From positions 6,510,001-6,574,000 of the forward strand of contig NC_015957.1 in the NCBI RefSeq assembly GCF_000147815.2: a stretch of DNA of 64,000 nt. Reading direction: 5' to 3'. The notes below the pieces were generated by a model. That model did not search any database. It saw only the letters and a list, made by a program, of their open reading frames with translations, and had not been told where the DNA came from. Source of the DNA: Streptomyces violaceusniger Tu 4113. GTDB lineage: Bacteria; Actinomycetota; Actinomycetes; Streptomycetales; Streptomycetaceae. Each line of letters begins with the position of its first letter. Within the stretch, counting starts at the first letter, position 1. Below, one piece after another: positions 11,701 to 28,951 of the stretch. Both the position numbers and the translations under genes were made by a program.

Positions 11701-14700
11701 TCGTCCTCCCCCTCACCGGCGGTACGGCGACCACCGATCACGCCTACACCACCGCGGCCGGCAGCCCGTACACGGTCACCGTCAGCTACGACGGCGACGC
11801 CAACTTCGTGCCATCCGTAGGCACCGGCCTCCACCCCGTCGACCCGGCCGCGACCAGCACCACGATCACCGCCACGCCCGACCCCACCGTCACGGGCGAG
11901 CTGGTCACGGTCACCGTGGCCCCCACCGGGCCCGGCGCGGGCACCCCGACCGGGCCGGTCACCATCGACTTCGGCGACGGCACCCCGCCGGTCACCGCCG
12001 AGCTGGTGGCCGGCTCCGCGTCGGTCATCCACGCCTACACCAGCACGGCCGGCAGCCCCTACACCGTCTCGGCCGAGTACGGCGGCGACACCGACTTCGC
12101 CCCGTCCGAGAACACCCTCGAGCACGCCGTCGCACCGGCCTCGACCACCACCGTCGTGAACTCGTCGCCGAGTCCGTCGGCGGTGGGCCAGAGCGTGACG
12201 CTGATCGCGCGGGTGGCGCCGGTGCCGCCGGGCGCGGGCGCGCCGACCGGCACCATCACCTTCGACTTCGGCGACGGCAGCGCGCCCGCCACCGCGCAGG
12301 TGGCGGGCGGTGTGGCCACGACGTCACACGCCTTCACCTCCACCGTGGGCAGCCCGTACACGGTCACCGCCACCTACAGCGGGGACGCCAACTTCGCCGC
12401 CTCCACCGGCACCGCCGTCCACCAGGTGGAGATGAGCGTGTCCGCCACCTCGACGACGGTGAGCTCCGCTCCGGACCCGTCCGTCGCGGGCGAGTCGGTC
12501 ACCGTCTCCGCGACGGTCGCGGTCCTCCCGCCCGCCGCGGGCACCGCCACCGGGACGGTGACGTTCCACTTCGGCGACGACAGCCCGGCCGTCACCGTCC
12601 CGCTCACCGGCGACACGGCGACGACCAGCCATGTCTACACCTCCACCGCGGGAAGCCCCTACACGATCAGCGCCGAATACAGCGGCGACGGCGACTTCAC
12701 CGGGTCGACCGGGCTCGACACCCAGACGGTCACCCCGTCCTCGTCGTCCACGGCGATGAGCTCCGCTCCGGACCCCTCCGTGACTGGCCAGCCGGTCACC
12801 TTCACCGCGACCGTCACCCCGGGCCAGGCGGGTGCGGGTACCCCGACCGGCACGGTGACGTTCGACTTCGGCGACGGCAGCCCGTCGGTCAGGGCGCCCA
12901 TGACCGACGGGACGGCCATCGCCGTCCACGCCTACCCCTCCACCGCGGGCAGCCCGTTCGACGTCACCGCCACCTACAGCGGGGACGCGAGCTTCACCGG
13001 ATCCACGGACACCGGCACCCGGACCGTGGCCCCGGCGGCCACCTCCACCGCCGTCTTCTCCTCGCCGGACCCGTCCCAGTCGGGCCAGCCGGTGACCGTC
13101 ACCGCCAATGTCACGGTCCTCGCCCCGGGGTCGGGCACACCCGACGGCACGGTCGTCTTCGACTTCGGCGACGGCACTCCGACGGTCACCGCCACCAGCG
13201 TGGCCGGAGTGGCGACAGTCACCCATGCCTACACGGGGACGTCCGGCAGCCCGTACACCATCACCGCCACGTACGACGACGACGGCGGCTTCGCCTCCTC
13301 CACCGGCACCGACGTCCACCCCGTGCAGCCGGCCTCGACCACCACCACGGTGACCGCCGATCCCGACCCGTCGGTGGTGGGCGAGCAGATCACGGTCACC
13401 GCGACGGTCGCACCACTGCCACCGGGGGCCGGGGTGCCGACCGGCACGGTCACCTTCGACTTCGGCGACGGCACGGCACCGGTCACCGTGCCGCTGGCCG
13501 GAGGGGCCGCCATCCTCGCGCACGCGTACCCGAGCAGCCTCGGCAGCCCGTACACGATCACCACGACGTATGACGGCAGCGACGGCTTCAGGTCCTCGGT
13601 GAACACCGAGACCCATACGGTCCTGCAGGCCGCGACGACCACCACGATGAGCTCCGCGCCGCAGCCCTCCGTCGTGGGCCGGCCGGTCACCTTCACGGCG
13701 ACCGTGGCGCCGGTGGCACCGGGCGGGGGCTCGCCGACCGGAACGGTGACCTTCGACTTCGGTGACGGCAGCGCCCCGGCCGCGGTCCCGGTCGTCAACG
13801 GCCTGGCGACGGCCGTGTACGCCTATACGAGTGCGGCGGGCAGCCCGTACCCCGTCACCGCCGCCTACGGCGGCGATCCCGACTTCACGGCCTCCGGTGA
13901 CACCGTCGCCCACTCCGTCGGCCGGGCCCCGACCGCGATGGCGGTGACCTCGACACCGGATCCGTCGGTGACGGGCCAGCCGGTGACCGTCACCGCGACC
14001 CTCTCGGTCGTCGCCCCGGGAGCCGGAACCCCCACCGGCACCGTCACCTTCGACTTCGGCGACGGCACACCGATCGTCACCGCACCGGCCACGGCCGGGG
14101 TGGCGTCGGCCACGCACACCTGGGCCGACACCTCGGGCAGCCCGTACACCATCACGGCGGACTACAGCAGCGACGGCGACTTCACCGCCTCCAGCGGCAC
14201 CGTCACCCACACCGTCGCCCCGGCCGACACCCACACCGATGTGGTGTCCTCCCCCGATCCATCGGTGACGGGCGAGCCGGTGACCATCACCGCGGCCGTC
14301 TCCGCCGTCGCCCCGGGAGCCGGAACCCCCACCGGCACCGTCCTCGTCGACCCCGGCGACGGCACGGCCCCCGTCACCGCCTCCCTGACCGGAGGCGTGG
14401 CGACCGTCACCCACGCCTACACCGAGGCCTCCGGCAGCCCGTTCACCATCACGGCCACCTACAGCGGCGACGCCGACTTCACCGCCTCCAGCCGCACCGA
14501 CTCCCAGAACGTCGGCCTCGCCGCGACCACCACCACCGTCAGCGGCCTGCCGGAGCCGTCGTTCACGGGCCAGCCGGTGACGTTCCAGGCGCGGGTGGTG
14601 CCGGTCGCCCCGGGCGAGGGCTCGCCCACGGGCACGGTGACCTACGACTTCGGCGACGGAACCGCGCGGGTCGACGTCCCGGTGTCGGACGGTGTGGCGA

Positions 14701-17700
14701 CCGCCGTGCACACGTACGCGACCGCGGCGGGCGGCCCGTACACGGTCATCGCCGCCTACGGCGGGGACGACCACTTCATCGGCTCCGTGGACGCGGAAAC
14801 GCACTTCGTCGAGCAGGCGTCGTCGACCACGACCGTCGATTCGTCACCGAATCCGTCGGTCACGGGCCAGCCGGTGACCGTCACCGCGACCCTCTCGGCC
14901 ATCGCCCCGGGGGCCGGAACCCCCACCGGGACCGTCACCTTCGACTTCGGTGACGGCACGCCGACCGTCACCGCACCGGTCACCGGCGGGACGGCCACCA
15001 TCAGCCATGGCTATCCCACCGCCCTCAACAGTCCGTACACCATCACGGCGGACTACAGCGGCGACGCCGACTTCGCCGCGTCCAGCGGCACCGCCACCCA
15101 GAGCGTCGCCCCGGCCGCGACCGACACCACGGTGACCTCGGCCCCCGACCCGTCGGTGCCGGGTCAGCAGGTGACCATCGGCGCCACCGTCGCACCGGCC
15201 GCGCCCGGAAGCGGAATCCCCACCGGGAGCGTCATCTTCGATCCCGGCGACGGCACCCCGCCGGTCACCGCACCGCTCACCGCGGGGTCGGCGAGCATCA
15301 CCCACACCTACACCGGCACCTCCGGAAGCCCCTGCACCATCACCGCCGCCTACAGCGGCGACGCGGACTTCACCGCCTCCACCGGCACGGACACCCAGAC
15401 GGTCGGTCAGGCGGACACCGCCACCGCCGTGGTCACCTCTCCGGACCCGTCCGTGGCGGGTGAAGTGGTCACCCTCACCGCCAGGGTCTCGGCCGTGGCT
15501 CCGGGGGCGGGCTCCCCCACCGGCACCGTCACCTTCGACTTCGGCGACGGCACGCCGACCGTCACCGCACCGGTCACCGGCGGGTTGGCGACCGCCACCC
15601 ATGCCTACGCCACCTCGGTCGGCAGCCCCTTCACGGTCACCGCCGCCTACAGCGGAGACCCCGACTTCGCCCCGTCCACCGCCACCGGGACACATACGGT
15701 GCTGGTGAGCGCCGCCACCACATCGACCACCGTGACCTCTTCCCCGGACCCCTCGGTGACGGGCCTGCCGGTGACCTTCACCGCGACCGTGGCACCGACC
15801 CCGCCCGGCGCCGGAGTGCCCACCGGCACCGTCACCTTCGACTTCGGCGACGGCTCGGCGCCCGCCACGGCGTCGCTGTCCGGCGGCGTGGCGACCGTCG
15901 TCCACGCCTACTCGACCGCGGCGGGCAGCCCGTACACGGTCACCGCCGGCTACAGCGGGGACGTCAACTTCAGCACCTCCGCGGGCACGGACACCCATAC
16001 GGTCACCCCGGCGGCGACGACCACGGCGGTGGCCTCCGCACCGGATCCCTCCGTGGTCGGCCAACCGGTGGCCCTCACGGCGGCCGTGGCTCCCGTCGCC
16101 CCGGGCGCGGGCGTGCCCACCGGCACCGTCATCTTCGACTTCGGCGACGGCTCTCCGGTCGCGTCGGCGTCGCTGACCGGCGGGGTGGCCACGATCAACC
16201 ACGCCTATGCGAGCGCCGACGGCTTCACGGTGACCGCGACCTACGCCGGTGACACCAGCTACACCTCGTCCACCGGCACCGACACCCAGACCGTGCACCA
16301 GGCGGCCACCGCCACGGCGCTGGTCTCCTCGCCGAACCCCACGGTCAGCGGTCAGCCCGTCACCCTCACGGCGACGGTGGTGCCGATCATCCCGGGGGCG
16401 GGGGTGCCGACCGGGACGGTCACCTTCTCCTTCGGCGACGGCACACCGACCGTCACCGCTCCGCTCTCCGACGGCCTCGCGTCCGTCAACCACTCCTTCA
16501 CGGGTGCCGCCGGCGGCCCGTACACGGTCACGGCCACCTACAACGGGGATGCCGACTTCACCGCCTCCACCGGCACCAATGTCCAGATGGTCAACAGGGC
16601 GGCCACCACGACGGCGGTGACCTCCTCCCCCGATCCCAGCGTCACCGGGCAGACCGTCACCCTCACCGCGACGGTCTCCGCGCTCGCCCCGGGCACCGGG
16701 ACACCCACCGGCACCGTCACCTTCAACCCCGGCGACGGCACACCGGCCATCATCGCGACCCTGTCCGGTGGCACGGCCACCGCCACCCACGCGTACACCA
16801 GCGCCGTCGGCAGTCCCTACGCCGTCAGCGCCACCTACAACGGCGACACCGGCTACACCGCCTCCACCGGCACCGACACCCAGACCGTGGGCCGGGCGGC
16901 CACCACCACGACCGTCACCTCCTCGCCCGACCCCACCGTCGCCGGCCAGACCGTGACCCTCACCGCCACCGTCACCGCGGTCGGGCCCGGCGCCGGAACC
17001 CCGACCGGCACCGTCACCTTCACCTACGGCGACGGCACACCGGCCGCCACGGTGCCGGTCGCCGGGGGTGTGGCCACCGTGACCCACGTCTACGCGGGGA
17101 CCTCGGGCAGCCCCTATGCCGTCACCGCCACCTACAACGGGGACACCGGCTATACGACGTCCACCGGCACCGACACCCAGACGGTCAACAGGGCGGCCAC
17201 CACCACGACGGTCGCCTCCTCGCCCGACCCCAGTGTCACGGGCCAGGCTGTCACGCTCACCGCCACGGTGGCGTCCCTTCTGCCCGGCGCCGGAATCCCG
17301 ACCGGGACGGTCACCTTCTCCTTCGGCGACGGCACCCCGACCGTCACCGCGCCCCTGTCCGGTGGCACGGCCACCACCAGCCATGCCTACACCACCCGGA
17401 CCGGCAGCCCCTTCACGGTCACCGCCACCTACAACGGGGACGCCAACTACACGACGTCCACCGGCACCGACACCCAGACCGTGGGCCGGGCGGCCACCAC
17501 CACGGCCGTGGTCTCCGCCCCGGACCCCTCGGCGACCGGGCAGTCCGTGACCCTCACCGCCACCGTGGTATCCGTCTCCCCGGGCGTCGGAACCCCGACC
17601 GGCACCGTCACCTTCTCGTTCGGCGACGGTACGAACAACAGCACCGCGACCCTCTCCGGCGGCGTCGCGACCGTCACCCACACCTACACCACCAAGACCG

Positions 17701-18377
17701 GCAGCCCCTTCCCCATCACGGCCACCTACAACGGGGATACCAACTTCAGCGCCTCCAGCGGCTCCGACACCCAGACCATCGGCACCAAGATCGCGACCGC
17801 CACCACGGTGACATCGATCCCCGACCCCTCGGTGGTGGGTCAGCCGGTGACCATCAAGGCGACGGTCTCGTCCGCGACCGGTACCCCGGCCGGGGCCGTC
17901 ACCTTCTCCTTCGGTGACGGCACCAACACCGCCGTGGGAATCCTGCTCAGCGGTATCGCGACCGTCACCCACACCTACACGACCACCACCGGGAGCCCGT
18001 TCACCATCACGGCCACCTACAACGGGAACGACAACTTCGCCACCTCCAGCGGCACCGACACCCAGACTGTCAACAAGACGGCCACCACGACATCCGTGGT
18101 CTCCTCCCCGAACCCCTCGACGGTGAGCGATCCGGTGACCGTCACCGCGACCGTGTCCCCCGTCGCCCCCGGCACGGGGACGCCCACCGGGACCGTCACC
18201 CTGGCCATCACCGAGCGCACCCCCCAAGTGGTGACACTGGTGAACGGCACCGCCTCCGCGACGTTCAACCCGCTGCAGAAGGGGACGCACACCGTCACCG
18301 CCAACTACAACGGCGACGTCAACTACGCGACCTCCTCGGCGACCACCACACAGACGGTGGTCACCGGTCAGGGGTAG
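8718..18377 (+). CDS. Giant IPT/TIG and Ig/PKD-like repeat protein
   Basis: With the ATG at 8718 (GGAG at 8709-8712), the protein has about 3,219 residues. Residues 1-100 include LILVTDPGENCIAVVD, resembling one blade of a YVTN/NHL beta-propeller. Residues about 105-350 hold three IPT/TIG domains (GGTLVTIIGSHFSGATAVFFG and two relatives). From about residue 351 to the end are 29 repeats of about 98 residues, each opening with a PDPS.xGQPVT motif, then GTPTGTVTFDFGDG, then HxYT..GSPYTVTATYxGD. I find no Sec or Tat signal, no membrane helix and no LPXTG anchor. Such Ig/IPT proteins are usually surface, adhesive or fibre-like; the function here is unknown. The stop lies 10 bp from that of the convergent SMC-like gene. 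Confidence 0.88.
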   Translation: MPCRPHGLILVTDPGENCIAVVDPESRRLVPTLSAPIPLPARCMPDRLVVHTALDGLDALAAFHRGTLLDTLPGGPDAPALTGVGPGEWPGIEIARSLGTFEIFNQFSGIFPDQGPYSGGTLVTIIGSHFSGATAVFFGSRRAATFSVLDDQTIIAVTPSGTGAVPVKVTTPGGTAPIGYFYYVAWPTLTGLLPIAGPIGGGNIVELTGVNLSTARLVRFGTAIASPTAVSDQHLLVTAPPASGPGTVSLYVISVGGVSNRLLYTYAPVPVVTDVSPSTGSVAGGETIVLTGTGLTFVTGVTIGGVPAASFESYSDTLLAVVTPPGVPGPADITVTTAGGSVTVPGGFTYTASTTTAVTSVPDPSIVGQPVTLTAVVTGIPPTAGTPTGTVTVDFGDGSPSVNVSLTGGTATVSHVYAAPSVTQYAVTAEYSGDPYFTPSAGTDTQTVEAAATTTTVVSTPDPSVPGQSVTFVAQVAPAPPGAGAPTGTVTFDFGDGTQTVTLPLANGAATVAHAYPDVAGSPYAVTATYNGDTNFTSSVGTDSHTVEQAGTATSVTSAPDPSAVGEPVTVTATVTAISPGAGTPTGTVTLDFGDGTPPVTPPLTGGTVTATHTYTGATGSPYSITAAYSGDSNFSPSTATDRQSVGQASTTTAVASAPDPSAAGEPATVTATVTAISPGAGTPTGTVTLDFGDGTPPVTAPVSGGQATATHTYTSAAGSPYPISATYSGDADFRTSLGTDSQTVQPAATATAVTTAPDPSTVGDPVTFTATVTAVPPGAGAPTGTVTFAPGDGTPPITATLIGATATATYAYTDTAGSPYTATATYNGDIDFTASSGTDTQTVEPAATATAIASVPAPSTVGQATTFVAKITPGTPAAGSPTGTVTFEFSDNTPPVTAPVTGGTATVVHTNPETATPYTVAATYSGDQNFQPSSAAGTHQVVQAVSTTVVTDSPSPSVTGEPVTFTATVSAAPPASGTPTGTVAFDFGDGTAPVVLPLTGGTATTDHAYTTAAGSPYTVTVSYDGDANFVPSVGTGLHPVDPAATSTTITATPDPTVTGELVTVTVAPTGPGAGTPTGPVTIDFGDGTPPVTAELVAGSASVIHAYTSTAGSPYTVSAEYGGDTDFAPSENTLEHAVAPASTTTVVNSSPSPSAVGQSVTLIARVAPVPPGAGAPTGTITFDFGDGSAPATAQVAGGVATTSHAFTSTVGSPYTVTATYSGDANFAASTGTAVHQVEMSVSATSTTVSSAPDPSVAGESVTVSATVAVLPPAAGTATGTVTFHFGDDSPAVTVPLTGDTATTSHVYTSTAGSPYTISAEYSGDGDFTGSTGLDTQTVTPSSSSTAMSSAPDPSVTGQPVTFTATVTPGQAGAGTPTGTVTFDFGDGSPSVRAPMTDGTAIAVHAYPSTAGSPFDVTATYSGDASFTGSTDTGTRTVAPAATSTAVFSSPDPSQSGQPVTVTANVTVLAPGSGTPDGTVVFDFGDGTPTVTATSVAGVATVTHAYTGTSGSPYTITATYDDDGGFASSTGTDVHPVQPASTTTTVTADPDPSVVGEQITVTATVAPLPPGAGVPTGTVTFDFGDGTAPVTVPLAGGAAILAHAYPSSLGSPYTITTTYDGSDGFRSSVNTETHTVLQAATTTTMSSAPQPSVVGRPVTFTATVAPVAPGGGSPTGTVTFDFGDGSAPAAVPVVNGLATAVYAYTSAAGSPYPVTAAYGGDPDFTASGDTVAHSVGRAPTAMAVTSTPDPSVTGQPVTVTATLSVVAPGAGTPTGTVTFDFGDGTPIVTAPATAGVASATHTWADTSGSPYTITADYSSDGDFTASSGTVTHTVAPADTHTDVVSSPDPSVTGEPVTITAAVSAVAPGAGTPTGTVLVDPGDGTAPVTASLTGGVATVTHAYTEASGSPFTITATYSGDADFTASSRTDSQNVGLAATTTTVSGLPEPSFTGQPVTFQARVVPVAPGEGSPTGTVTYDFGDGTARVDVPVSDGVATAVHTYATAAGGPYTVIAAYGGDDHFIGSVDAETHFVEQASSTTTVDSSPNPSVTGQPVTVTATLSAIAPGAGTPTGTVTFDFGDGTPTVTAPVTGGTATISHGYPTALNSPYTITADYSGDADFAASSGTATQSVAPAATDTTVTSAPDPSVPGQQVTIGATVAPAAPGSGIPTGSVIFDPGDGTPPVTAPLTAGSASITHTYTGTSGSPCTITAAYSGDADFTASTGTDTQTVGQADTATAVVTSPDPSVAGEVVTLTARVSAVAPGAGSPTGTVTFDFGDGTPTVTAPVTGGLATATHAYATSVGSPFTVTAAYSGDPDFAPSTATGTHTVLVSAATTSTTVTSSPDPSVTGLPVTFTATVAPTPPGAGVPTGTVTFDFGDGSAPATASLSGGVATVVHAYSTAAGSPYTVTAGYSGDVNFSTSAGTDTHTVTPAATTTAVASAPDPSVVGQPVALTAAVAPVAPGAGVPTGTVIFDFGDGSPVASASLTGGVATINHAYASADGFTVTATYAGDTSYTSSTGTDTQTVHQAATATALVSSPNPTVSGQPVTLTATVVPIIPGAGVPTGTVTFSFGDGTPTVTAPLSDGLASVNHSFTGAAGGPYTVTATYNGDADFTASTGTNVQMVNRAATTTAVTSSPDPSVTGQTVTLTATVSALAPGTGTPTGTVTFNPGDGTPAIIATLSGGTATATHAYTSAVGSPYAVSATYNGDTGYTASTGTDTQTVGRAATTTTVTSSPDPTVAGQTVTLTATVTAVGPGAGTPTGTVTFTYGDGTPAATVPVAGGVATVTHVYAGTSGSPYAVTATYNGDTGYTTSTGTDTQTVNRAATTTTVASSPDPSVTGQAVTLTATVASLLPGAGIPTGTVTFSFGDGTPTVTAPLSGGTATTSHAYTTRTGSPFTVTATYNGDANYTTSTGTDTQTVGRAATTTAVVSAPDPSATGQSVTLTATVVSVSPGVGTPTGTVTFSFGDGTNNSTATLSGGVATVTHTYTTKTGSPFPITATYNGDTNFSASSGSDTQTIGTKIATATTVTSIPDPSVVGQPVTIKATVSSATGTPAGAVTFSFGDGTNTAVGILLSGIATVTHTYTTTTGSPFTITATYNGNDNFATSSGTDTQTVNKTATTTSVVSSPNPSTVSDPVTVTATVSPVAPGTGTPTGTVTLAITERTPQVVTLVNGTASATFNPLQKGTHTVTANYNGDVNYATSSATTTQTVVTGQG
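9772..18372 (+). repeat. 29 tandem coding repeats of about 297 bp
   Basis: The DNA encoding the Ig/PKD-like modules is itself an array with a period close to 297 bp. Some neighbours are nearly identical: 10436-10518 and 10733-10815 differ at very few positions. Others have drifted; for example, several modules carry FxPGDGT in place of FDFGDGT. The final module is shortened and lacks the DFGDG segment. Confidence 0.9.
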
Positions 18378-18387
18378 CCCGCGGGGC

Positions 18388-21300
18388 TCACGGCCGGTCC
18401 GCCGCCTCGACGGGCGCATCCCCGCCCGCTTCGGGGCGGCGGTACATCCGTGTCGCGGTGATCTGGCCGTGGACCTGCTGCTCCTCCGCCGGCTCCCGGA
18501 CCGGCAGGCCGGGCCGCAGATGCTCCTCGACACTGATGTACTTCAGCCCGGCCCGCAGATCCGCGTCATTGCGCAACCGGATCACCAGCGGGAACTCGGC
18601 CAGAGCCGTGGTGTCGAACAGCCCCGTCGTATAAAGGAGCTGGACCCCGAGCGCGTCCGCGACCGCCCGCTGAAGCTCCAGCAGATAGGTGGCGTTGGCG
18701 CGGCCGATGGGGTTGTCGAGGAAGAGGGTGCCCGCGTGGCGGTGCTTGTCGCGGCCCCGGTCGTTGCTGCGCAGGGCCGCCATCGTGCAGTACAGCGCGA
18801 TGGCGGCGGTGAGCAACTGGCCGCCGGAGAACACATCGCCCATCTGTCCCACCGGCACCCGCTCGGCCCGCAGCACCGCGTCCGGTTTGAGGATCTCGAC
18901 GGCCACCCCGCGCGGCTGGAGCGCGGCCTGGACCCCGCGCAGCAGCAGCGACATGCCGTCCCGCCGCAGATCGGAGTTCTTCCGGACGGCGGAGCGGGTG
19001 GCCTCGTCGATGACCTCGCCGAGCCGCTCGGCGAGCGTGGCCTGGTCGGGGTCCTCGAAGCGGATCCGCAGGAACTCCTGCCCCGACCACTCGCCGAGCC
19101 CCTCCGGGAGCCGGGAGAGCCGCTGCGCCGAGCGCAGGGTGGCCAGGCAGGACTCGACCAGGCCGCGCAGCCGGTCCACGATGGAGTCGCGGTTGCGCTC
19201 GAGCTGCTCCAGCTCGTCGGTGAGCACGCGCAGCCGGGGCGCGAACGCGTCGGCCCAGGCGGCGGCGTGCTCGGGCAGCGCGGCCGCCGGGAGTTCGCGG
19301 ATCTGCTGGCGGGCGGGGGTGCGCACCTGCTCGTAGCGGGTGGAGTTGGCGTGCCGCACCAGCACATCGCCGGCCTCCCGCACCGCCGACTCGGCCCCCG
19401 ACAGATCGGCGGCGCAGCCGCGCAGTGAGCGGCGGGTCTCGGCGGCGGCCTGACGGGCCTCGGCGAGACCTCCGGCGTACGGCTCGGGCCGCTCGCCGTC
19501 GTCCTCCGCGCCGGGGCCCTCGCGCAGCAGATCCCGCAGCAGGGCGGCGGTCTCGTCGAAGCCGCCCGCCCCGTCCTCGGCGGAGCGGTGGGCGCGCACC
19601 AGGTCGGCGTGGGCGGTACGGGCGGTGTCCAGGGCGTCCGTACGGGCGGCCAGTTCGCCATTGGCGGTGCGCAGCAGCTCCTTCGCCTGCTCGGCGTCGG
19701 CCGGGACCGTCTCCTCCGGCAGCTCCGTGTGGGCGTCGCCGTCGGCGGGGGCGAGCCGCTCGGCCTCGCCACGCAGCCGCCCGAGCTGCTCGCTCGCCGC
19801 CGACGCACGGCCCTCCAGCATCTGGACCAGCGATTCGGCGCGGGCGGCGGCGGCCTGCCGGGAGGGTCCGTCGGCGCCGTCGGTGCCCTCCAGAAGCTGG
19901 GCGGCGCGGGTGCGGACCTTGTTGGTGAGCCGGTCGAGGGAGGCGAGCGCGGCGCTCTCGTCGCTTTCGGCGCGGGCCTGTTCGGCGCGCAGATCGGCGC
20001 CGACGCCGACCTTCTCGTAGACCTGGGAGGCGGCGCGGTACGCCTCGCGGAGCGCGGGCAGCGAGGTGCTGGGCGGCTCGGTGTCCTCGCCGAGGTCGTC
20101 GGGGGCGCCCGCGATCTCCGCGCGCTCGGCGCGCAGGGCGCGGGCGGTACGGTGCGCGTCGTCGGCCGCGCGCTGGGCGGCGCGCCGGTCCTCGTCGGCG
20201 GAGCGGGCCCGGTCCACGCAGCCCGCGGCGCGCTCCTCGTACTCGGCGGCCTCCTCGGCCAGTTCGCGCAGCCGGGTCTGCCAGGTGGCGCGCTCCCGCA
20301 GCCGGTACGCCAGACCGGCCAGCGCGTCCGCCACCCGTCGGGCCCGCTGCGCCGTCTCCTGGCGCTCGTCCCGGACGCGGGCGGCCTCGGTGGCGGCCTC
20401 GTCGGCCTCCGCCCGTGCCGTACGCGCCTCCACCAACTCGCGCTGCGCGGTGTCGGCGGTCTCCCGGCCGGTCTCCGCCGCCGCCGCGAGCTCCGCGAGC
20501 CGCCCGGGCGGGCAGCCGGTGCGAAAGGAGGCGAGCCGCGCGGACAGCGCCCGGTCCCCGGCCAGCCGGGCGGCGAGCGCCCTGATCTCCGCGTCCCGCT
20601 CGGTGGCGCGGGCCCGCAGCTCGCGCCGCTCGTCGTCGGCGGCGCGCTCGTCGTGCATCGCCGGGTTCGGCGGCACGAGGAAGACCCCGCTGTCCTCGGT
20701 ACCGGGTGCGGGCGTCGGCGCGAGCAGCGCGGCGGACGTCCCGACGGCCACGGCGGACCGCGGCAGCAGCGACGCCTGCGCGAGCACCGCACGGGCGCGG
20801 GCGTGGGTGTCGGGGTCGGTGATGACGACGCCGTCCACCAGCTCGGGGCGGGCCGCGAGCACGGCGGCGTGGTCGACGGGGTCCACGGCCTGGGCGAGGT
20901 AACGCCAGCCGGGGAGGGCGGGGATGCCGTGCTCGCCGAGGTATTCGACGGCCGCCAGCACATCGGGGCTGGGCGGCAGCAGCCCCCCGTCACCGAGCGC
21001 GCCCAGGATCCGCGCGTCCTCGGCGGCGGCGGTCCGCAGCTCGAAGAGCTGCCGCTCGGCGGAGGCCACGCTCTCCTCGAGGAGCTCACGCAGCGCCTCG
21101 GCGTTGCGGTCCAACTCCTCGGCGGTCAGCGGCCCGTCACCGAGGGGCCGCTGGGCGGGGCGGGCGCGGTCGCTGCGGTCCCGGCCGGGTGCACCACCGG
21201 GCTCGGGGGTCCAGCAATCGGAGTCGTCGGTGAGGTCGGTGGGGTCGGTGAGGTCGGTGGGGTCGGTGGGGTCGGTGTTGGTGGCGTCGGGGTCGTCGGC

Positions 21301-24300
21301 GTCGTCGGGGCCGGTGTCGGTGTCGGTGTCGGCGTGGGTGACGTTGGCGTGGACGACGTCGGGGGCAGCCTCCGACTCGGCCCGACCGCTGTGGGCGGCA
21401 TCGGCAGCAGCCTCCGTCCCGGCCCGAGCACCCCGGGCGGCATCAGCAGCAGCCTCCGTCCCGGCCCGACCGCCATGGTCGGCATCGGCGGCAGCCCGCG
21501 ACTCGGCCCGGCCCTCGTCGCCGTCCCCGACTCGAGCCGATACCTCCCCGGGCGGCCGGGAGTCGGCCGCCACGGCCCGGGCGCCGTCGCGCGGGCCATC
21601 CTGGCATGGGCCGCCGTCGCCCAGCAGGGCGTCCTCCTTCTGGTCGATCCGCACCGTCACCCGCCCCGCGGGCCGCGACTCCGCCGCGAGCGGACGACGC
21701 CGATGGGCCTGCCCCGGCCCCGCCTCCGCGTCCTCGGGAGGAGCCGCTCCCTGCCAAGCGGAGCGCGTCTCCTCCGCCTCACCCACCGGTCCGGCGTCCG
21801 GTAGCCGGCCGCCAACGGAAGCAGCATCGCCGGCCATGTGCTGGGCGGTGCCTGCCTCGCCCACCCGGCCGGTGCCCGAGAGCCCGTCGCCCGTGGCGGC
21901 GGGGGAGCCCCCCGCCTCTTCAACGCCACTCGTCACCTGGCCCCAATGGCGCGGCTCACCGACCGTACGCGGGCCGGAAAAGCCATCTCCGCGCGCCGGG
22001 TCGCCACCCGCCGGCCGGTCGCCCACGGAAGCGGCATCGCCCATGCGCTCGGCCGGGCCTGCCTCGCCCACCGGGCCGGTGCCCGAGAGCCCGTCGCTCC
22101 CTGAGGCGGGGGCGTCTTTCGCGCTCATACCCGGGCGCGCCTCGTGCGCCGGGCCGACGGGCGGCTGTCCATACTCGACGCCTGCGGCAGCGTCCGCCGC
22201 GCCCGCGACGCCGTCCGTCCACCGGGCCGCCGGGCCGGTCGCGGCCGAGCCCAGAGCGGCGGCCTCGTTCTCCGGGGTGGCGGTCAACTCGTCCGTGGCG
22301 TACGCCGGGTAGGCACCCGGCTCGTAGCCCTCCTCGCCCGGGAGATGTTCGCGGGTGCCGCCGGGTGGCTCCTCAAAGGCGTAGGCGTGGTCGGCGGGTG
22401 CGGGCTCGTCGTCCAGGGGGATGGTGCGGGTGGAGGCGCGGAAGGCGGCCGGGAGTTGGGAGAGGCCGATGTCGTCCGCGTCCTCCTCGTCCACGCGGAC
22501 CGTGATCCACCCGGCCCGGTCGGAGTCGGTCGGCAGGGCGCGGGCGCCCCGCCGACGCACGGCGCCCGCGTCCGGAATGCGCACCGTCACCCCGCCCGCC
22601 GCGCGCGCGTCCGCGGCCGAGGGGCGGGCGGCGCTACCGCGCGGGGCGGGGACGGAAGGCTGCGGCAGGCCCAGCAGTTCGACCAGGCGCTGCTCCGCGC
22701 CCAGCGCCTCCGCGGCGCGCCGCTCCGCGTCGTACGCGGACTCCGCGGCCCGCGCCGCGTCCACCGCTCGCGCCGCGGCCAGGTCGGCGCGGGCCTCCTC
22801 GGCGGCGGCCGACTTCGCGTGGTCGGCGGTGCGCCGAGCGGTCTCGCGGGCCTCGTCGAAGGCGGCGACCGTGGTCTTCTCGGCGTCGCTCGCGGCGAGG
22901 GCGGCGCGGGCCGGGTCGGCGTCTGGGGCGGAGTCGTCGAGCCAGCCTGCGCGGACGGCCTCGGCGGTCTCCTGCTCGACCTCGGCGAGCCGCTGGCGCA
23001 GATGCTCGGCGTCGCTGCGGGCGCGCTGGGCCGCCGTGGCGGCGGAGGTGGCGTCGCGGTGGGCGGCCTCGCCGGCCTCCTGGAGGGCGGCGGAGCGCTC
23101 CTCCTCCTCGCCCGCGACCCGCTCTCCGTCGGCAGCCGCCGCGTGCAGGGTGCGAACGAGGTCGCCGGCGGCCTTGGCTCGGGCGGCGAGCGCGGGGGCG
23201 GCGTCCCGCTCGGCCTCGCGGATGGCGGCGGCCACGCGCACGGAGCGGTCGGCGGCGGCCCGGTGGCGCAGCACGGTCTCGGCGGCCTGCCATGCGGAGT
23301 GCAGAGTGCGGGCGTCGTTGAGCTCGCGGCGCTGCGCCGCGGCGCCCTTCTCGGCGGCGGCCAGCGCCAAGGAGGCGTGGCGGTAGGCGAGTTCGGCGGC
23401 GACGAGGTCGCTGCGGCTGCGCGCTGCCTCGGCGTCGGTGACGGCCTGGGCGGCGGAGCCGACACGCTCGGCGAGTTCGGCGGCGCGCGCCCGTTCCTCC
23501 GCGCCGCGTGCGGACAGCCGCCGGGCGAGCCTACGGGTGCGGCGCTCGGCGCCCGCGTGCACGCCGCGGGCCTGCTCGCGCCGCTCCGCGGCCTCCGCGA
23601 TGCGCTGGAGCAGATCGAGCGAACCGGCGGTGAAGTCGCGCTCGGCGGTCAGCTCGGCGCGGCGGCCCAGCTTGTGGGCGAAGCCGTGGACGAGGTCGGC
23701 GAGCCCGTCGGTGTCGCGGGTGTCGGTGACCGCGCGCAGCAGGAGATCGGTGAAGTCGGAGTCGTTCTTGACCGCGAAGAGCCCGGCGGCCTCACCCTCG
23801 TCGGCGTTCATCTCCCGCTGGTAGCGGAAGAGTTCGGGGTCGAGGCCGAGCTCGCCGAGGTGTTCGTTCCAGCGCTCGTGGATCTCCACCCAGACCACGT
23901 CGAGATGCGGATACGCCTTGGCGGCCTCCGTTAGGGCGTCACGGAAGCCCTTCATGGTGCGGCGGCGGCCGCGTGCGGTGGAGGCGCCCTCGACGGCGGG
24001 CCGCACCGCCGCGGATTCGGCGACCGGCAGCGAGTCCAGGCTCATCCCGGGGCCGGGCCGGAAGGAGTACCACGCCTCGGCGAACTTCCGCGGGTCGTTG
24101 GAGACCTGGCGGCCGCGCCATTCGCTGACCTTGCCGACGACGACGGTCTCACCGGTGACGGTGTGCTGCCACTCCAGCGCGACATGGCCGCAGTCGTCTG
24201 CGAGCAGGAACTTGCGCAGCACACCGGAGCTGGCGCCGCCCAGGGTGTTGCGATGGCCGGGCAGCATCACCGAGAAGATCAGCTTGAGCAGGACGGACTT

Positions 24301-24504
24301 GCCGCCGCCGTTCTCCAGGAAGAGCACACCGGCGGGGGCGGGGCGGCGCGGCGGGCCGACCGGCTCCTCCTCGAAGAACTCCGCCTGGGTGGGCGCGGGG
24401 CTGGGCACCGGCTCGCCGACTCCGCGCAGGTCCAGCACGGTGTCGGCGTAACGCGCACCGGCCGGTCCGATGGAGTAGAGGCGGATCCGGGACAGCTCGT
24501 ACAT
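18388..24504 (-). CDS. SMC-like (MukB/JetC-type) ATPase with large disordered insertion
   Basis: The ATG at 24504 (MYELSRIRLYSIGPAG) gives 2,038 residues. The N-terminal P-loop is LFLENGGGKS, with GKS at 68-70 and Leu where the first Gly of the motif is expected. The C-terminal head has the ABC signature VFSGGQLLTAAIALY (about 1893) and Walker B AGTLFLDNPIGRAN (about 1930). Between them lie Ala/Glu/Arg-rich coiled coils, a hinge-like globular segment at about 1170-1255, and a low-complexity region of nearly 500 residues at about 620-1105. It is the last gene of an operon with a winged-helix-like and a kleisin-like protein, the arrangement of Muk/Mks/Wadjet condensins. A role in chromosome or plasmid DNA handling is inferred; no nuclease (JetD-like) gene is adjacent. 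Confidence 0.82.
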   Translation of the reverse strand: MYELSRIRLYSIGPAGARYADTVLDLRGVGEPVPSPAPTQAEFFEEEPVGPPRRPAPAGVLFLENGGGKSVLLKLIFSVMLPGHRNTLGGASSGVLRKFLLADDCGHVALEWQHTVTGETVVVGKVSEWRGRQVSNDPRKFAEAWYSFRPGPGMSLDSLPVAESAAVRPAVEGASTARGRRRTMKGFRDALTEAAKAYPHLDVVWVEIHERWNEHLGELGLDPELFRYQREMNADEGEAAGLFAVKNDSDFTDLLLRAVTDTRDTDGLADLVHGFAHKLGRRAELTAERDFTAGSLDLLQRIAEAAERREQARGVHAGAERRTRRLARRLSARGAEERARAAELAERVGSAAQAVTDAEAARSRSDLVAAELAYRHASLALAAAEKGAAAQRRELNDARTLHSAWQAAETVLRHRAAADRSVRVAAAIREAERDAAPALAARAKAAGDLVRTLHAAAADGERVAGEEEERSAALQEAGEAAHRDATSAATAAQRARSDAEHLRQRLAEVEQETAEAVRAGWLDDSAPDADPARAALAASDAEKTTVAAFDEARETARRTADHAKSAAAEEARADLAAARAVDAARAAESAYDAERRAAEALGAEQRLVELLGLPQPSVPAPRGSAARPSAADARAAGGVTVRIPDAGAVRRRGARALPTDSDRAGWITVRVDEEDADDIGLSQLPAAFRASTRTIPLDDEPAPADHAYAFEEPPGGTREHLPGEEGYEPGAYPAYATDELTATPENEAAALGSAATGPAARWTDGVAGAADAAAGVEYGQPPVGPAHEARPGMSAKDAPASGSDGLSGTGPVGEAGPAERMGDAASVGDRPAGGDPARGDGFSGPRTVGEPRHWGQVTSGVEEAGGSPAATGDGLSGTGRVGEAGTAQHMAGDAASVGGRLPDAGPVGEAEETRSAWQGAAPPEDAEAGPGQAHRRRPLAAESRPAGRVTVRIDQKEDALLGDGGPCQDGPRDGARAVAADSRPPGEVSARVGDGDEGRAESRAAADADHGGRAGTEAAADAARGARAGTEAAADAAHSGRAESEAAPDVVHANVTHADTDTDTGPDDADDPDATNTDPTDPTDLTDPTDLTDDSDCWTPEPGGAPGRDRSDRARPAQRPLGDGPLTAEELDRNAEALRELLEESVASAERQLFELRTAAAEDARILGALGDGGLLPPSPDVLAAVEYLGEHGIPALPGWRYLAQAVDPVDHAAVLAARPELVDGVVITDPDTHARARAVLAQASLLPRSAVAVGTSAALLAPTPAPGTEDSGVFLVPPNPAMHDERAADDERRELRARATERDAEIRALAARLAGDRALSARLASFRTGCPPGRLAELAAAAETGRETADTAQRELVEARTARAEADEAATEAARVRDERQETAQRARRVADALAGLAYRLRERATWQTRLRELAEEAAEYEERAAGCVDRARSADEDRRAAQRAADDAHRTARALRAERAEIAGAPDDLGEDTEPPSTSLPALREAYRAASQVYEKVGVGADLRAEQARAESDESAALASLDRLTNKVRTRAAQLLEGTDGADGPSRQAAAARAESLVQMLEGRASAASEQLGRLRGEAERLAPADGDAHTELPEETVPADAEQAKELLRTANGELAARTDALDTARTAHADLVRAHRSAEDGAGGFDETAALLRDLLREGPGAEDDGERPEPYAGGLAEARQAAAETRRSLRGCAADLSGAESAVREAGDVLVRHANSTRYEQVRTPARQQIRELPAAALPEHAAAWADAFAPRLRVLTDELEQLERNRDSIVDRLRGLVESCLATLRSAQRLSRLPEGLGEWSGQEFLRIRFEDPDQATLAERLGEVIDEATRSAVRKNSDLRRDGMSLLLRGVQAALQPRGVAVEILKPDAVLRAERVPVGQMGDVFSGGQLLTAAIALYCTMAALRSNDRGRDKHRHAGTLFLDNPIGRANATYLLELQRAVADALGVQLLYTTGLFDTTALAEFPLVIRLRNDADLRAGLKYISVEEHLRPGLPVREPAEEQQVHGQITATRMYRRPEAGGDAPVEAADRP
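21232..21276 (-). repeat. 9-bp microsatellite inside the SMC-like gene
   Basis: Five tandem copies of a 9-bp unit, g(a/g)ggtcggt on the plus strand, encoding the DPTDPTDLTDPTDLTD run of the ATPase insertion. Adjacent DNA continues as degenerate GTCGGT/GTCGTC triplet-rich sequence to about 21330. Confidence 0.85.
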
Positions 24505-24572
24505 GGCGGCGGACTCTCGTTGTCGGAAGGGGTGGTGATATCGGGCGGGCGACGACGGGGCAGGGGCAGGGT

Positions 24573-25457
24573 TCAGGAGTGGAAGGGGAGACCGGCGTCG
24601 GCCACCAGATCGAGGTCGTCGCCCTCGTCGGGGGGCAGCAGGGTCGCGCTGCCGTCGCTGACGGGGACGACACCGAGCTCCAGCAGCTCGGCCATGGCGG
24701 CGGTGGCCGCCATGTCGCGCACCTGGAGCTGATAGCGGGCGGTTGTGCGGTAGGTGCCACCGGACTCGTCCCCGGTGCGCTGCAGAAAGCCGGAGTCGAC
24801 AAGGAAGGCGAGGGCCTTGCCGACAATGCCGGTGGTGGAACCGGCGAGCCTGCGCGCGTCCTTGGTGGCGCCGGTCGCGCTGCGCCGGGCGTACACCCGC
24901 CAGGCGGATTCCAGCCCGGGCGCACCGGTGGCGGGGTCGGTGTTCTCCCCCTGCTCCTCGGCGCGCTCCTCCAGTCGCCGGCACGCCTGGCGGACGAAGG
25001 CGTCGACGCCGTTGACGGTGACCCGGCCGATATAGCCGTCGTCGGCGAGGTCCTCGGGGCGGGGGAACGCCAGGGCGGCGACGGCGAGATGGGCGAGGCC
25101 GTGCAGAAAGCGGTCGGCGGAGTCGGTGGCGGCCCGGCGGGCGTAGTCGCCCATGCGGACGGCGAAGACGGAGTCCTCGGCGGCGGTCACGGCCATTCCG
25201 GCGCGGGTCGAGACCTCCAGCACGATGAGCCCGAGCCCGGCGGCGACGGCGTCGGCGAGGCGCGCGAACGCCGGTTCGTCGCGGTGGCGGCGCAGCAGCT
25301 CAGCGTATTCGACGTCCCGTGCGGGCAGCAGCTTGGGCTGGAGTCCGAAGGCCACCAGCCGTGCGGCGTCGGCCGCGTCGGCGGGCGTGATCCCGGGCGC
25401 CGCCGGGGCGGGTGCCGCGTCCGGCGGTGTCATGTCGTCGATGTCGTACTCGGTCAC
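24573..25457 (-). CDS. Putative winged-helix accessory subunit of the SMC-like complex
   Basis: 294 residues from GTG 25457, with a clear AGGAGG Shine-Dalgarno 7 nt upstream. It is acidic and mostly helical in appearance, without membrane segments. LDGFLQRTG-like text near residues 220-235 (ALAFLVDSGFLQRTGDESGG followed by YRTTARYQLQVRDMA) looks like a winged-helix wing with a DNA-binding or dimer module. Size and position between a kleisin-like gene (46 bp upstream) and the SMC-like ATPase (68 bp downstream) match MukE/JetB-type KITE subunits. The assignment is by architecture, not by recognised similarity. Confidence 0.6.
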   Translation of the reverse strand: MTEYDIDDMTPPDAAPAPAAPGITPADAADAARLVAFGLQPKLLPARDVEYAELLRRHRDEPAFARLADAVAAGLGLIVLEVSTRAGMAVTAAEDSVFAVRMGDYARRAATDSADRFLHGLAHLAVAALAFPRPEDLADDGYIGRVTVNGVDAFVRQACRRLEERAEEQGENTDPATGAPGLESAWRVYARRSATGATKDARRLAGSTTGIVGKALAFLVDSGFLQRTGDESGGTYRTTARYQLQVRDMAATAAMAELLELGVVPVSDGSATLLPPDEGDDLDLVADAGLPFHS

Positions 25458-25503
25458 GGCTGAACCTCCTCGCGCGGGGCGTATTCGCTGGTCATAGCGG
25501 CCA

Positions 25504-27036
25504 TCAGGCCACCTCCGCCCGGTCGGCCGCCATACCGGCCGCGTCCAGCAGGGCGGTACCTACTATCAGGTCGGCGCCGCCGAACTCGGGATCGTCCAGC
25601 TCGGTGCCGTCGTCCACGGCGAACAGCAGCCGCTGCTCGCCCTGGCGGTAGGCGGTGCCGACCGGGGGGCTGGCGGCGTGGACGGCGAGGAGGGCGATCA
25701 GATACGGCAGTTCGGGGTCGCGGCGGCGGGCGTCGGCGAGCAGCCCGGACAGCCGGCGGGGGGCGTCGGCGGGCAGCTCGAGCAGCTCCATGGCCACCGC
25801 GAGCTGCTCCTCGCTGAAGCGGCTGTCGTCGGGGGTGACGATGAGGTCCGGCTCGGGCATCTCGGCGCCGAGGTGCTCGCGCTCCACGGGCGGGGTGAGC
25901 AGCATCTCGACCAGGTCGCCCATGCGCACCGAGGTCGGGGTGCGCAGGCCGGTGCCGCGGGCGAAGAACGCGTCGGTGACCCGGCCCGCGCGGTCGAGGG
26001 GGAGCGGGAGGACCGGGGCCAGTAGCTGTCCGTACAGGTCGTATCCGGAGCGTGGGGCGGGGGGTGCGAAGGCTTGGCGGTCCTGCTCGGCGCGGAACAG
26101 CGGACCGGCCTCCAGCAGCCGGGACTGGAGCTGGGTGTGGCGCCGGATGCAGTCCTTGACGATGTCGACGAGCTCGGCGGCGCGCCGCTTGTGCTCGGCG
26201 CTCTCCGCCTCGTCGCGCGCCTTACGGATGTTGGTGAGGATCGCGTTCTCATGGCGGTAGCGGTCGGCGACGTGGTCGAGCGCCTCGCTGATCAGCTCGG
26301 GGACGGTGCTCAGCCAGTCGACGGCTCGGACGTTGCGCCGGGTGGCGTCGAGGGTGCGGCGCAGCGTCTCCGAGTACTGCACGGTGCGGTAGCGGGCCTG
26401 CTCGGCGGCGAGTTGGGCGTCGGCGAGCCGGCCCCGGCTGATGAGGACCTCCAGCTTGACCTCGGCGGCGATCTGGGCGCTGGTGACATCCGTGTCGAGG
26501 GCGCCGACCAGGACGTTGACCGCCTCGTCGGTGGCGCGGAGATAGACGCTGCCGCCGGGGCCGGGCACCTCTTCGATCAGCTTGAAGTCATAGTCCCTGC
26601 GGACATACACCCCATCGGGCCCGAAGGTGCCGTAAACGGCGCGGAAGCCGCGGTCCACACTGCCGACGTTGATCAGGTTCTCCAGCACCCAGCGGGCGAC
26701 CCGGTCGTGCTCGGCGGCGGGGCGCCCGGGGGCCTGGGCCGCGACGCGGGGCAGCAGCCTGGCCACTATCTGCTCGTGGTCGGCGCCGGTGTCGAAGTCC
26801 ATGTGGAGCGTGACGAGGTCGATGGCCGCGAGGGCGACCTCCGCCATCGCGTACACCCCGTACTCCCCCGCCAGGTTGGCCTTGCGCGCGTCGAGGTCGT
26901 GCAGCGGCGCGGTGCAGGCAAGCGCGCGCAGCCGCCGGGCCAGGCCCTCGTCGGCGGCCGGGCCCGGGGCCGGCCGGGCAGCCCCTTCAGCGGTGTTGAG
27001 CTGGGGCGCGGCGGCCCCCGGGGGTGGAGATGTCAC
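25504..27036 (-). CDS. Putative kleisin-like subunit (MukF/JetA-type) of the SMC-like complex
   Basis: 510 residues from the GTG at 27036 (VTSPPPGAAAPQ); an earlier in-frame GTG at 27132 would add 32 residues of non-conserved-looking sequence. The N-terminal half has helical text that could form winged helices (GEYGVYAMAEVALAAIDLVTLHMDF) and YVRRDYDFKLIEEVPGPG. The middle is a long helical stretch (AQIAAEVKLEVLISRGRLADAQLA through HENAILTNIRKARDEAESAEHKRRA) such as kleisins and DUF3375-like proteins use to contact SMC necks. The C-terminus is acidic. It heads the operon. Function is inferred from partner genes and layout. Confidence 0.6.
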   Translation of the reverse strand: MTSPPPGAAAPQLNTAEGAARPAPGPAADEGLARRLRALACTAPLHDLDARKANLAGEYGVYAMAEVALAAIDLVTLHMDFDTGADHEQIVARLLPRVAAQAPGRPAAEHDRVARWVLENLINVGSVDRGFRAVYGTFGPDGVYVRRDYDFKLIEEVPGPGGSVYLRATDEAVNVLVGALDTDVTSAQIAAEVKLEVLISRGRLADAQLAAEQARYRTVQYSETLRRTLDATRRNVRAVDWLSTVPELISEALDHVADRYRHENAILTNIRKARDEAESAEHKRRAAELVDIVKDCIRRHTQLQSRLLEAGPLFRAEQDRQAFAPPAPRSGYDLYGQLLAPVLPLPLDRAGRVTDAFFARGTGLRTPTSVRMGDLVEMLLTPPVEREHLGAEMPEPDLIVTPDDSRFSEEQLAVAMELLELPADAPRRLSGLLADARRRDPELPYLIALLAVHAASPPVGTAYRQGEQRLLFAVDDGTELDDPEFGGADLIVGTALLDAAGMAADRAEVA

Positions 27037-27166: not shown

Positions 27167-28300
27167 CTACGGCTCACCGGCCGGTGGTCCGTCCAGGGCG
27201 AGCACCGCGAAGGTGGCCAGCCAGTGGTCGCCGGTGAAGTCCCCGGAGTCGGTGGCCGGGAGCCCGGCGGCCAGATGGTCACGGGCCGCCGTCCGCAGCA
27301 CATCCGCCCGCGGATCGCCGTGCGGCAGGGCGGCGGCCAGGCGGCGGAGCGCGGCGGCCCGGCTGAGGATGAGGCCGAGGAGATGACCGATCTGCGGATC
27401 GGCCGGGTCGGAGACGACGGGCGGGGTGAGCACGGTGACGGGCTCACCCCATTCGACGCCGGGCAGGAAGCGTTCCAGCCAGCGCGCGAACCCCTCTTCC
27501 TTCAGCACCCGGCTCATCGCCTCGGCCTCGGTGAGCGCGGGCGAGAGGAAGTCCTGCCCGGAGGGCTCCCAGTGGACGGGGGCGTCGTGGTCGTCGGCGA
27601 ACCAGCCGAGGACGGCCTCGGTGACCGGTTCGACGATCGTCTCGACACCGGCGGCGGCCGCGCTGTCCAGGACCAGGCCGAGGGCGAAGGCGCTGTTGGT
27701 GTGGACGCCGTGCCGCACCGGGTAGGTGGCGCGTGCCAGCCATCCGCTCAGCAGTGCGCTGACGGCGTCGGCGGCCGGTTCCAGGGCCTTCGCCCAGCGC
27801 TCGCCCGCGGGTCCCGGGAGGCTTCGGCACTCGGCGGTCAGCGCGAGCAGCCAGGCCCATCCGTAAGGGCGCTCGAAGGAGGGATGGGCACGGAGATAGC
27901 CCGCCTCGGCGGCCAGGGCATCGACCGTAAGGTGCCCGTCCAGTACGGCGGTGACCTCGTCGGCGCGGATGAGGTCCGGGCAGCGGCGCAGCAGCCGGAC
28001 CAGCAGCCAGTGCATATGGACCGCGGAGTGCCAGTCGTAGGAGCCGTAGAAGGCGGGGTGGTGCCGGCGCGGCTCCACCAAGTCCTCGGGTCCGCGCAGC
28101 AGATGCGCCGGGGCGTTGGGGTAGGCCCGGGTGACGTTGGCGGTGGCGAGGGCGGCGAACCGGGCCGCGTACCGGCCGAGTTCGCTCCCCCTCTCGTCCG
28201 GCCCGTCGAATTCGTTGGACTCGTTCGGCTCGTTCGGCTCGTGCGGCTCGTGCGGCTCGTGCGGCTCGTGCGGCTCGTGCGGCTCGTGCGGCTCGTTCAA
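27167..28300 (-). CDS. DUF2891 family protein
   Basis: The likely start is TTG 28300, which overlaps the pcp stop as TTGA and has GGGAG 7 nt upstream, giving 377 residues. The first 30 residues are a His-Glu-Pro tandem tract encoded by a 9-bp microsatellite. After that the sequence matches what I know of DUF2891: YDWHSAVHMHWLL, HGVHTNSAFALGLVLD and HWEPSGQDFLSPALTEAEAM, conserved His/Asp/Glu-containing motifs in an all-helical protein reminiscent of alpha/alpha-toroid enzymes. The function of the family is not known to me. Coupling to pcp and the 5-oxoproline transporter genes suggests a part in peptide or 5-oxoproline metabolism. Confidence 0.85.
   Translation of the reverse strand: MNEPHEPHEPHEPHEPHEPHEPNEPNESNEFDGPDERGSELGRYAARFAALATANVTRAYPNAPAHLLRGPEDLVEPRRHHPAFYGSYDWHSAVHMHWLLVRLLRRCPDLIRADEVTAVLDGHLTVDALAAEAGYLRAHPSFERPYGWAWLLALTAECRSLPGPAGERWAKALEPAADAVSALLSGWLARATYPVRHGVHTNSAFALGLVLDSAAAAGVETIVEPVTEAVLGWFADDHDAPVHWEPSGQDFLSPALTEAEAMSRVLKEEGFARWLERFLPGVEWGEPVTVLTPPVVSDPADPQIGHLLGLILSRAAALRRLAAALPHGDPRADVLRTAARDHLAAGLPATDSGDFTGDHWLATFAVLALDGPPAGEP
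28225..28296 (-). repeat. 9-bp microsatellite at the 5' end of the DUF2891 gene
   Basis: Eight tandem 9-bp units: two TCGGCTCGT, then six GCGGCTCGT on the plus strand. They encode NEP followed by six HEP and one further NEP triplet, starting one codon after the TTG start. Confidence 0.95.
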
Positions 28301-28941
28301 TGCGTTGCTCCCTCGGCGATGCGCAGGTCGGTCCGGGTGCGCACGGCCGCCCCGATGATCGCCCGCAGCGCGTCGGCGGACATCGCGGCGGGCAGGGCGG
28401 GTTCGGCGCGGTCCACGACCTGTTCCGGCGCGTACGGGAGGTGGACGAAGCCGCCGCGCAGCGCGGGCCGCTCGGTGGCGATGAGATGGGCCAGGCCGTA
28501 GAAGACGTGGTTGCACACGAAGGTTCCGGCCGTCTGCGAGACGGCGGCCGGAATCCCGGCCTCGCGGACGGCCGCGACACACGCCTTGACGGGCAGGGAG
28601 GCGAAGTAGGCGGCAGGGCCGCCCTCGACAACCGGTTCGTCGATGGGCCGCCGTCCGGCGTTGTCGGGTATGCGGGCGTCGTCCACGTTGATCGCGACCC
28701 GCTCGACGGTGACACCGGGACGGCCGCCGGCCTGGCCCACGCACAGCACCAGGTCGGGGTCGGCCTCCTCCACGGCTGCGGCCAGCTCCTCGAGCGCGGT
28801 GCCGAAGACGCATGCGAGCTGTACGGCCGTGACCTCGGTCCCGGGCGGCGGAGCGGCGGCGACGAGGGAGACGGCCTGCCACGACGGGTTGACGTCCGAG
28901 CCCGCGAAGGGCTCGAAGCCGGTGAGAAGAACTCGGGTCAC
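28297..28941 (-). CDS. pcp: Pyroglutamyl-peptidase I (pyrrolidone-carboxylate peptidase)
   Basis: 214 residues from GTG 28941. It is a cysteine peptidase of family C15 that removes N-terminal pyroglutamate from peptides, releasing 5-oxoproline. The catalytic triad is visible: E80 (GVTVERVAIN), C143 (QTAGTFVCNHVFYGL) and H167 (GGFVHLPYAPEQ). Length and motifs are canonical. It follows the DUF979 gene by 10 bp and its stop overlaps the DUF2891 start. Its product is the substrate of the pxpABC enzyme encoded divergently, so the locus forms a pathway from pyroglutamyl peptides to glutamate. Confidence 0.95.
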   Translation of the reverse strand: MTRVLLTGFEPFAGSDVNPSWQAVSLVAAAPPPGTEVTAVQLACVFGTALEELAAAVEEADPDLVLCVGQAGGRPGVTVERVAINVDDARIPDNAGRRPIDEPVVEGGPAAYFASLPVKACVAAVREAGIPAAVSQTAGTFVCNHVFYGLAHLIATERPALRGGFVHLPYAPEQVVDRAEPALPAAMSADALRAIIGAAVRTRTDLRIAEGATH

Positions 28942-28951
28942 AGCGGCCCCC

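Follow-up and report, generated by a model that had tools for sequence, protein, structure and literature searches.

We analyzed a 64,000-nucleotide stretch of Streptomyces violaceusniger Tu 4113 (contig NC_015957.1, positions 6,510,001 to 6,574,000), referred to here as the window, which carries an SMC-type operon at 18388-27036. As a sequence-only reading of the window had proposed, three consecutive genes lie there in the order kleisin, KITE and SMC ATPase, all on the minus strand, with intergenic gaps of 46 and 68 bp as calculated from the coordinates.

25504..27036, minus strand: kleisin, JetA3/MukF-like; 510 residues from a GTG at 27036, frame open to 27132
24573..25457, minus strand: KITE protein, JetB/MukE-like; 294 residues
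18388..24504, minus strand: SMC ATPase, JetC3-like; ATG start, 2038 residues; the mechanical open reading frame begins further upstream than this ATG

Searches with PADLOC profiles placed the kleisin and the SMC in Wadjet type III families, the kleisin matching JetA3 (PDLC00567) with 627.5 bits (E = 4.9e-189) and the SMC matching JetC3 (PDLC00588) with 1400 bits. Compared with the PDB, the predicted kleisin and KITE folds came closest to MukF and MukE/JetB, at modest scores, and the homology of the trio to jetABCD operons supports the identities of all three subunits. In alignment, the kleisin was 34-60% identical to eight kleisins from operons that carry the nuclease gene jetD and 30-31% identical to two more distant ones. 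The relationship of the trio to Wadjet type III is strong. None of the three proteins matched a Muk family in Pfam or the Wadjet type II families TIGR02677-02680 in NCBIfam at E≤1, and the SMC did not match TIGR02168, the SMC of Smc-ScpAB. The earlier reading was therefore correct in setting the trio apart from TIGR02677-02680, and the type III profiles supply the name it lacked. The Pfam and NCBIfam matches that did appear (CCDC71L, SpiroCoCo_C, ICE_TraI_Pfluor) were all below their own cut-offs and were discarded. We also sought an SMC partner among PDB sequences with kleisin and KITE profiles and found none; a match at E = 7e-6 to a designed protein, confined to the last 55 profile positions, was taken as an artefact.

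The features of the SMC were located as follows, the hinge being assigned by position, without a domain model.

24283..24324, minus strand: Walker A LFLENGGGKSVLLK, SMC residues 61-74
21142..22653, minus strand: low-complexity stretch before the hinge, SMC residues ~618-1121, gapped in JetD-bearing copies
20821..20928, minus strand: hinge-like segment GIPALPGWRYLAQ..., SMC residues 1193-1228, aligned in 35 of 35 SMC rows
18790..18837, minus strand: ABC signature stretch with FSGGQ, SMC residues 1890-1905
18676..18738, minus strand: Walker B stretch with LFLDNPIG, SMC residues 1923-1943

The N-terminal P-loop and the C-terminal SGGQ and Walker B motifs that had been described were all found: Walker A (LFLENGGGKS) starts at residue 61, the signature stretch (DVFSGGQ) at residue 1890 and the Walker B stretch (HAGTLFLDNPIG) at residue 1923. 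The motifs NGGGKS, FSGGQ and LDNP were intact in all 25 JetD-less SMC rows. LDNP was also present in the 10 JetD-bearing rows (35 of 35 in all), which otherwise varied slightly, with NGGGKG in two, NTGGKS in one and WSGGE in one. Most ABC ATPases have a catalytic Glu directly after the Walker B aspartate; in these 35 type III SMCs, JetD-bearing or JetD-less, the residue is Asn.

We found the operon to be nearly universal in the family. By profile search JetA3 was present in 147 of 150 Streptomyces genomes and in 148 of 150 Streptomycetaceae genomes, covering 17 of 17 genera (the JetA3 and JetD3 counts for Streptomyces and Streptomycetaceae, and the JetD3 count for genus g188 given below, come from scoring part of the first-look candidates in each genome). 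Two of the three Streptomyces assemblies negative for JetA3 were 78 and 82% complete; the third was 98% complete, in 1140 contigs. Named genomes yielded at least 594 pattern matches, and among the matches listed 531 encode a kleisin relative. The best 80 of these at least 594 matches were all from Streptomyces, and kleisin, KITE and SMC were each full-length in all 65 of these 80 loci whose sequence extends 8 kb or more from the start of the kleisin gene. The ratio of nonsynonymous to synonymous substitution rates (dN/dS) for kleisin and KITE was 0.07-0.20 in 13 comparisons with seven loci; both proteins are under purifying selection. A canonical SMC is also encoded in the window's genome (C3:1840841-1845346, 923 bits).

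No nuclease subunit had been visible to the earlier reading, and we found JetD neither beside the trio nor elsewhere in the genome: the best match of JetD_C (PF09983) had an E-value of 0.70, and the JetD3 profile, with the 13 best candidates per genome scored, gave no match at E≤1e-5. A six-frame search with a profile built from 15 type III JetD proteins found none at E≤1e-3 in 117 loci, the window included (best E 0.0017, 13 bits), and the same profile found JetD in 19 of 19 JetD-bearing loci, although the JetDs of L104, L105, L163 and L167 (L and G numbers are our labels for loci and genomes) lay outside the profile. Eighty of the 117 loci had been chosen by kleisin identity alone, the other fetched ones having been preselected as JetD-less or undecided; no JetD was found in these 80, 65 of which extend at least 1.5 kb past the SMC gene, as do 99 of the 116 fetched loci. 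JetD was scored as undecided where the locus ends before or just after the JetD place (L112, L119, L121, L122, L128, L131, L132, L134 and L136). By median positions, about 1 kb separates the SMC gene from the commonest same-strand gene downstream, which resembles a sensor kinase and recurs in 48 of 94 loci; no nuclease gene was therefore seen in the operon. The names sensor kinase, gap, pgk, tpi and transposase, given to neighbouring genes beyond the window, were assigned by eye from the starts of the proteins.

JetD was found in some Streptomyces genomes, by JetD_C in 18 of 150 and by JetD3 in 12 of 150, one of them weakly (E = 5e-6). Both counts are given because JetD_C misses some type III JetDs: in G007 it missed the JetD of the second copy, which both BLAST (79 bits) and the JetD3 profile detect. 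That profile includes this JetD as a row, along with six other Streptomyces JetDs. JetD3 lay beside the core copy in none of the 12 positive genomes, as judged by contig and coordinate. The neighbourhood survey that the earlier reading had called for located JetD in separate second copies instead. More than one JetA3 match was found in 13 of 150 Streptomyces genomes. For eight of these both copies were fetched, and each has a second, complete jetABCD (L101-L107, L115); seven of the core copies lack JetD, and the eighth (L112) is cut off by its contig end within the SMC gene. The remaining genomes (G022, G089, G093, G127 and G140) were left out of this comparison. SMCs of the JetD-bearing copies have about 1480-1500 residues, that of L103 being split over two frames. 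In a 15-row alignment JetD has invariant acidic residues at E155, E201, D254, D256 and E334 (numbering of the first row), which we take to be a TOPRIM-type site. The two JetD3 matches of G089 (C1:15693-16697 and 9222617-9223441) lie close to opposite ends of a contig of 9.24 Mb and may belong to terminal inverted repeats. In G106, transposase-like frames (L101:1194-3980) lie directly upstream of the accessory jetABCD, in keeping with a mobile operon.

JetD-less copies were also found in at least two further actinobacterial families. A sample of the class had JetA3 in 51 of 345 genomes, 33 from Streptomycetaceae and 18 from family f18, presumably Frankiaceae, and JetD_C in 35 of 345; eight of the 18 f18 loci fetched were JetD-less, three had JetD and seven were undecided. 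A sample of the order had JetA3 in 23 of 249 genomes, 18 of them in f46 (Pseudonocardiaceae), and 20 of its 26 listed places were fetched. Ten closely related f46 loci lack JetD and form a separate JetD-less core in Pseudonocardiaceae; eight of the ten have gap downstream, with pgk and tpi where the sequence extends. Three of the same genomes have JetD-bearing second copies (L154, L156 and L161). Elsewhere in the order sample JetD was present in L163-L165 and L167 and was not found in L166, L168 and L169. All 19 genomes of genus g188 had JetA3, and four of the 19 had JetD3; in three of these four, about 6.7 kb separated JetD3 from an additional JetA3 with a lower score.

We built a three-protein tree of 47 rows and 2206 columns (LG+G4) after dropping a kleisin-only tree with long branches and weak deep support; the retained tree gave warnings of long branches and uneven composition, some JetD-bearing rows being long-branched. 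For L164 and L156, in which the SMC gene is in two open frames, the longer piece alone was used, and L131, in which JetD is undecided (1.2 kb beyond the SMC gene), was counted with the f18 core in the tree, the clade tests and the six-frame JetD search. The Streptomyces, f18 and Pseudonocardiaceae cores were each a clade (100/100), with JetD-bearing copies interspersed. A single clade for all three JetD-less cores was rejected by the approximately unbiased test (p-AU = 4.6e-5), a result that held in a quick tree without L164 and L156 (p-AU = 4.8e-6), and JetD was therefore lost at least twice if it is ancestral. Streptomyces and f18 as one clade was unrejected (p-AU = 0.34), and we therefore do not claim three losses. 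On this tree the presence of JetD requires four changes, L166 included. With JetD-bearing rows as the outgroup, at least two losses of JetD is the simplest account; re-gain is compatible with the tree, and the long branches urge caution. Outside the tree, L168 and L169 are distant JetD-less JetABC operons, 32-42% identical to the L107 subunits, and could be further losses.

The window SMC is unusually long because of the stretch of about 500 residues (618-1121) before the hinge, which has a high content of Ala, Gly, Asp and Pro and in alignment is not present in JetD-bearing relatives. Between Walker A and the hinge, 11 of the 12 JetD-bearing rows have 602-607 residues (the other row is a fragment) and all 13 Streptomyces core rows have 643-1132; by a similar measure the distance was 643-1110 in 64 named loci. 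Seven f18 rows have 606-688 residues there, and ten Pseudonocardiaceae rows have 602-605. The f18 SMCs are longer past the hinge (740-847 residues to the signature, versus 680-694 in JetD-bearing rows). The pre-hinge stretch is therefore a mark of the Streptomyces core and not of JetD loss in general.

The neighbours described by the earlier reading, a convergent Ig-repeat gene and an upstream DUF2891 gene, were both found, and both are outside the complex.

8661..18377, plus strand: immunoglobulin (Ig)-like repeat gene, convergent, at the SMC stop in the expected JetD place
27167..28882, minus strand: DUF2891 gene, upstream neighbour; longest frame, domain at residues 241-562 (Pfam, 417 bits)

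The Ig-like repeat frame encodes 3238 residues and ends 10 bp from the SMC stop. Pfam searches of the window's genes showed a 5-oxoproline-type cluster adjoining the operon at 27167-34103, with DUF2891, pyroglutamyl peptidase, DUF979, DUF969, a GntR/FCD regulator, LamB/YcsF and carboxyltransferase domains. Upstream of 94 core loci, many of them cut by contig ends, LamB/YcsF was found in 54, DUF969 in 34 and pyroglutamyl peptidase in 19, the names being taken from Pfam on the window's genes.

An intact motor that is fixed across the family, free of a nuclease and encoded beside a canonical SMC fits a second condensin best. We consider it probable that the trio is a nuclease-free JetABC derived from Wadjet type III, belongs to the core of the family and serves as a chromosomal condensin parallel to Smc-ScpAB, a function that we infer. 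JetABC without JetD would have become a core gene set of Streptomycetaceae, JetD presumably having been lost here rather than gained by the JetD-bearing copies. Kleisin, KITE and SMC would form a complex, and this complex would extrude loops on the chromosome alongside Smc-ScpAB, as is thought for MksBEF of Pseudomonas aeruginosa. Of the two options that the sequence-only reading had offered, an Mks-like housekeeping condensin and a plasmid-restriction variant, the former fits better: the operon is conserved, syntenic and found in nearly every genome, while the JetD-bearing paralogues are sporadic. Several points weigh against this overall reading. A profile name such as JetA3 is no proof of function, and the Foldseek E-values behind the fold matches were weak (2.4e-3 and 2.8e-3). 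In 27 of 31 single-contig genomes with a listed place for the core copy (from rounded sizes), the operon falls within the chromosome's outer quarter and away from the middle, and a passage of PMC10482375 describes Wadjet systems in Streptomyces as enriched towards chromosome ends. Family f18 has JetA3 in just 19 of 35 genomes. Among kleisin and KITE sites conserved in 90% of JetD-bearing rows, none was changed in all three JetD-less clades, so there is no sign of a nuclease partner given up.

This last result favours the main rival, plasmid or phage restriction without cutting, in which JetABC would fully extrude small circular DNA and then compact or silence it. The DNA-measuring ABC part is present with its ATP motifs intact, and restriction through compaction has a precedent proposed for Smc5/6, according to a section of a review (PMC10586767). 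We nevertheless hold silencing to be unlikely: JetD-bearing copies occur sporadically, whereas this operon is near-universal, syntenic and conserved. A working Wadjet whose nuclease acts in trans, whether a JetD encoded in a different operon or some unrelated enzyme, seems improbable: the 12 genomes with JetD3 elsewhere, or the 18 with a JetD_C protein, could provide one, but the other 138 of 150 Streptomyces, the window's genome among them, had no JetD3 match among the 13 best candidates scored per genome, and no nuclease gene was seen in the operon. The missing subunit might also mark a decaying remnant of a defence operon, which is largely contradicted by the 65 full-length loci, the dN/dS well under 1 and the retained ATP motifs, and which we think very improbable. 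Least credible of all is a RecN/SbcC-type repair ATPase beside two unrelated genes, a grouping that the earlier reading had wanted checked; a long coiled-coil ABC ATPase does not by itself discriminate, but the JetC3 and JetA3 scores, the kleisin and KITE fold matches and the gene order common to jetABCD operons largely contradict it.

If the trio is a second condensin, Streptomyces has an overlooked core SMC complex, which could be part of the reason that a genus with linear, multi-copy chromosomes tolerates the deletion of smc. A table in PMC4255302, in the portion available, lists an smc deletion in S. coelicolor, and the reading of such tolerated loss would be altered. The available portions of two papers on Streptomyces chromosomes (PMC13121528, PMC8410768) name SMC and no other condensin. 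Genomes that have paralogues both with and without JetD provide a natural setting in which to compare a defence motor and what is likely a chromosome motor. More broadly, and tentatively, at slightly less than an even chance, we propose that repeated loss of the nuclease in Actinobacteria converted an anti-plasmid SMC system into a chromosome machine with a housekeeping role, at least twice independently: once or twice in Streptomycetaceae and f18 and once in Pseudonocardiaceae. The proposed origin of MukBEF and MksBEF from Wadjet by JetD loss would thereby gain repeated, testable cases. We found no report of the JetD-less JetABC of Streptomyces in the accessible parts of the open-licence PMC literature; as far as these searches show, type III cases in actinobacteria, and their recurrence, are new.

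The trio resembles Wadjet type III (JetABCD, with a DUF3584-type JetC in PADLOC) in its JetA3 and JetC3 matches and in the gene order A-B-C. It differs in being a conserved core operon without JetD, and the Streptomyces core also has non-overlapping genes and an SMC with extra pre-hinge residues. MukF and MukE are the best fold matches of the trio's proteins; however, no Pfam Muk family was matched, and the window's genome retains a canonical SMC, whereas MukBEF took over from Smc-ScpAB in its hosts, as stated in a section of PMC10586767. MksBEFG/EptABCD of corynebacteria and mycobacteria is likewise an actinobacterial SMC complex with a kleisin and a KITE, but there the nuclease is retained; in C. 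glutamicum MksBEFG it binds the kleisin, according to a passage of PMC10123090. MksBEF of P. aeruginosa shares with the trio a kleisin-KITE-SMC set without a nuclease, alongside Smc-ScpAB. We set the two apart by profile, which assigns the trio to the type III branch; an excerpt of PMC4255302 calls MksB short-coiled, while the trio's SMC family spans about 1500-2000 residues. A path of nuclease loss like the one proposed here has already been suggested for P. aeruginosa MksBEF, in the same section of the review (PMC10586767).

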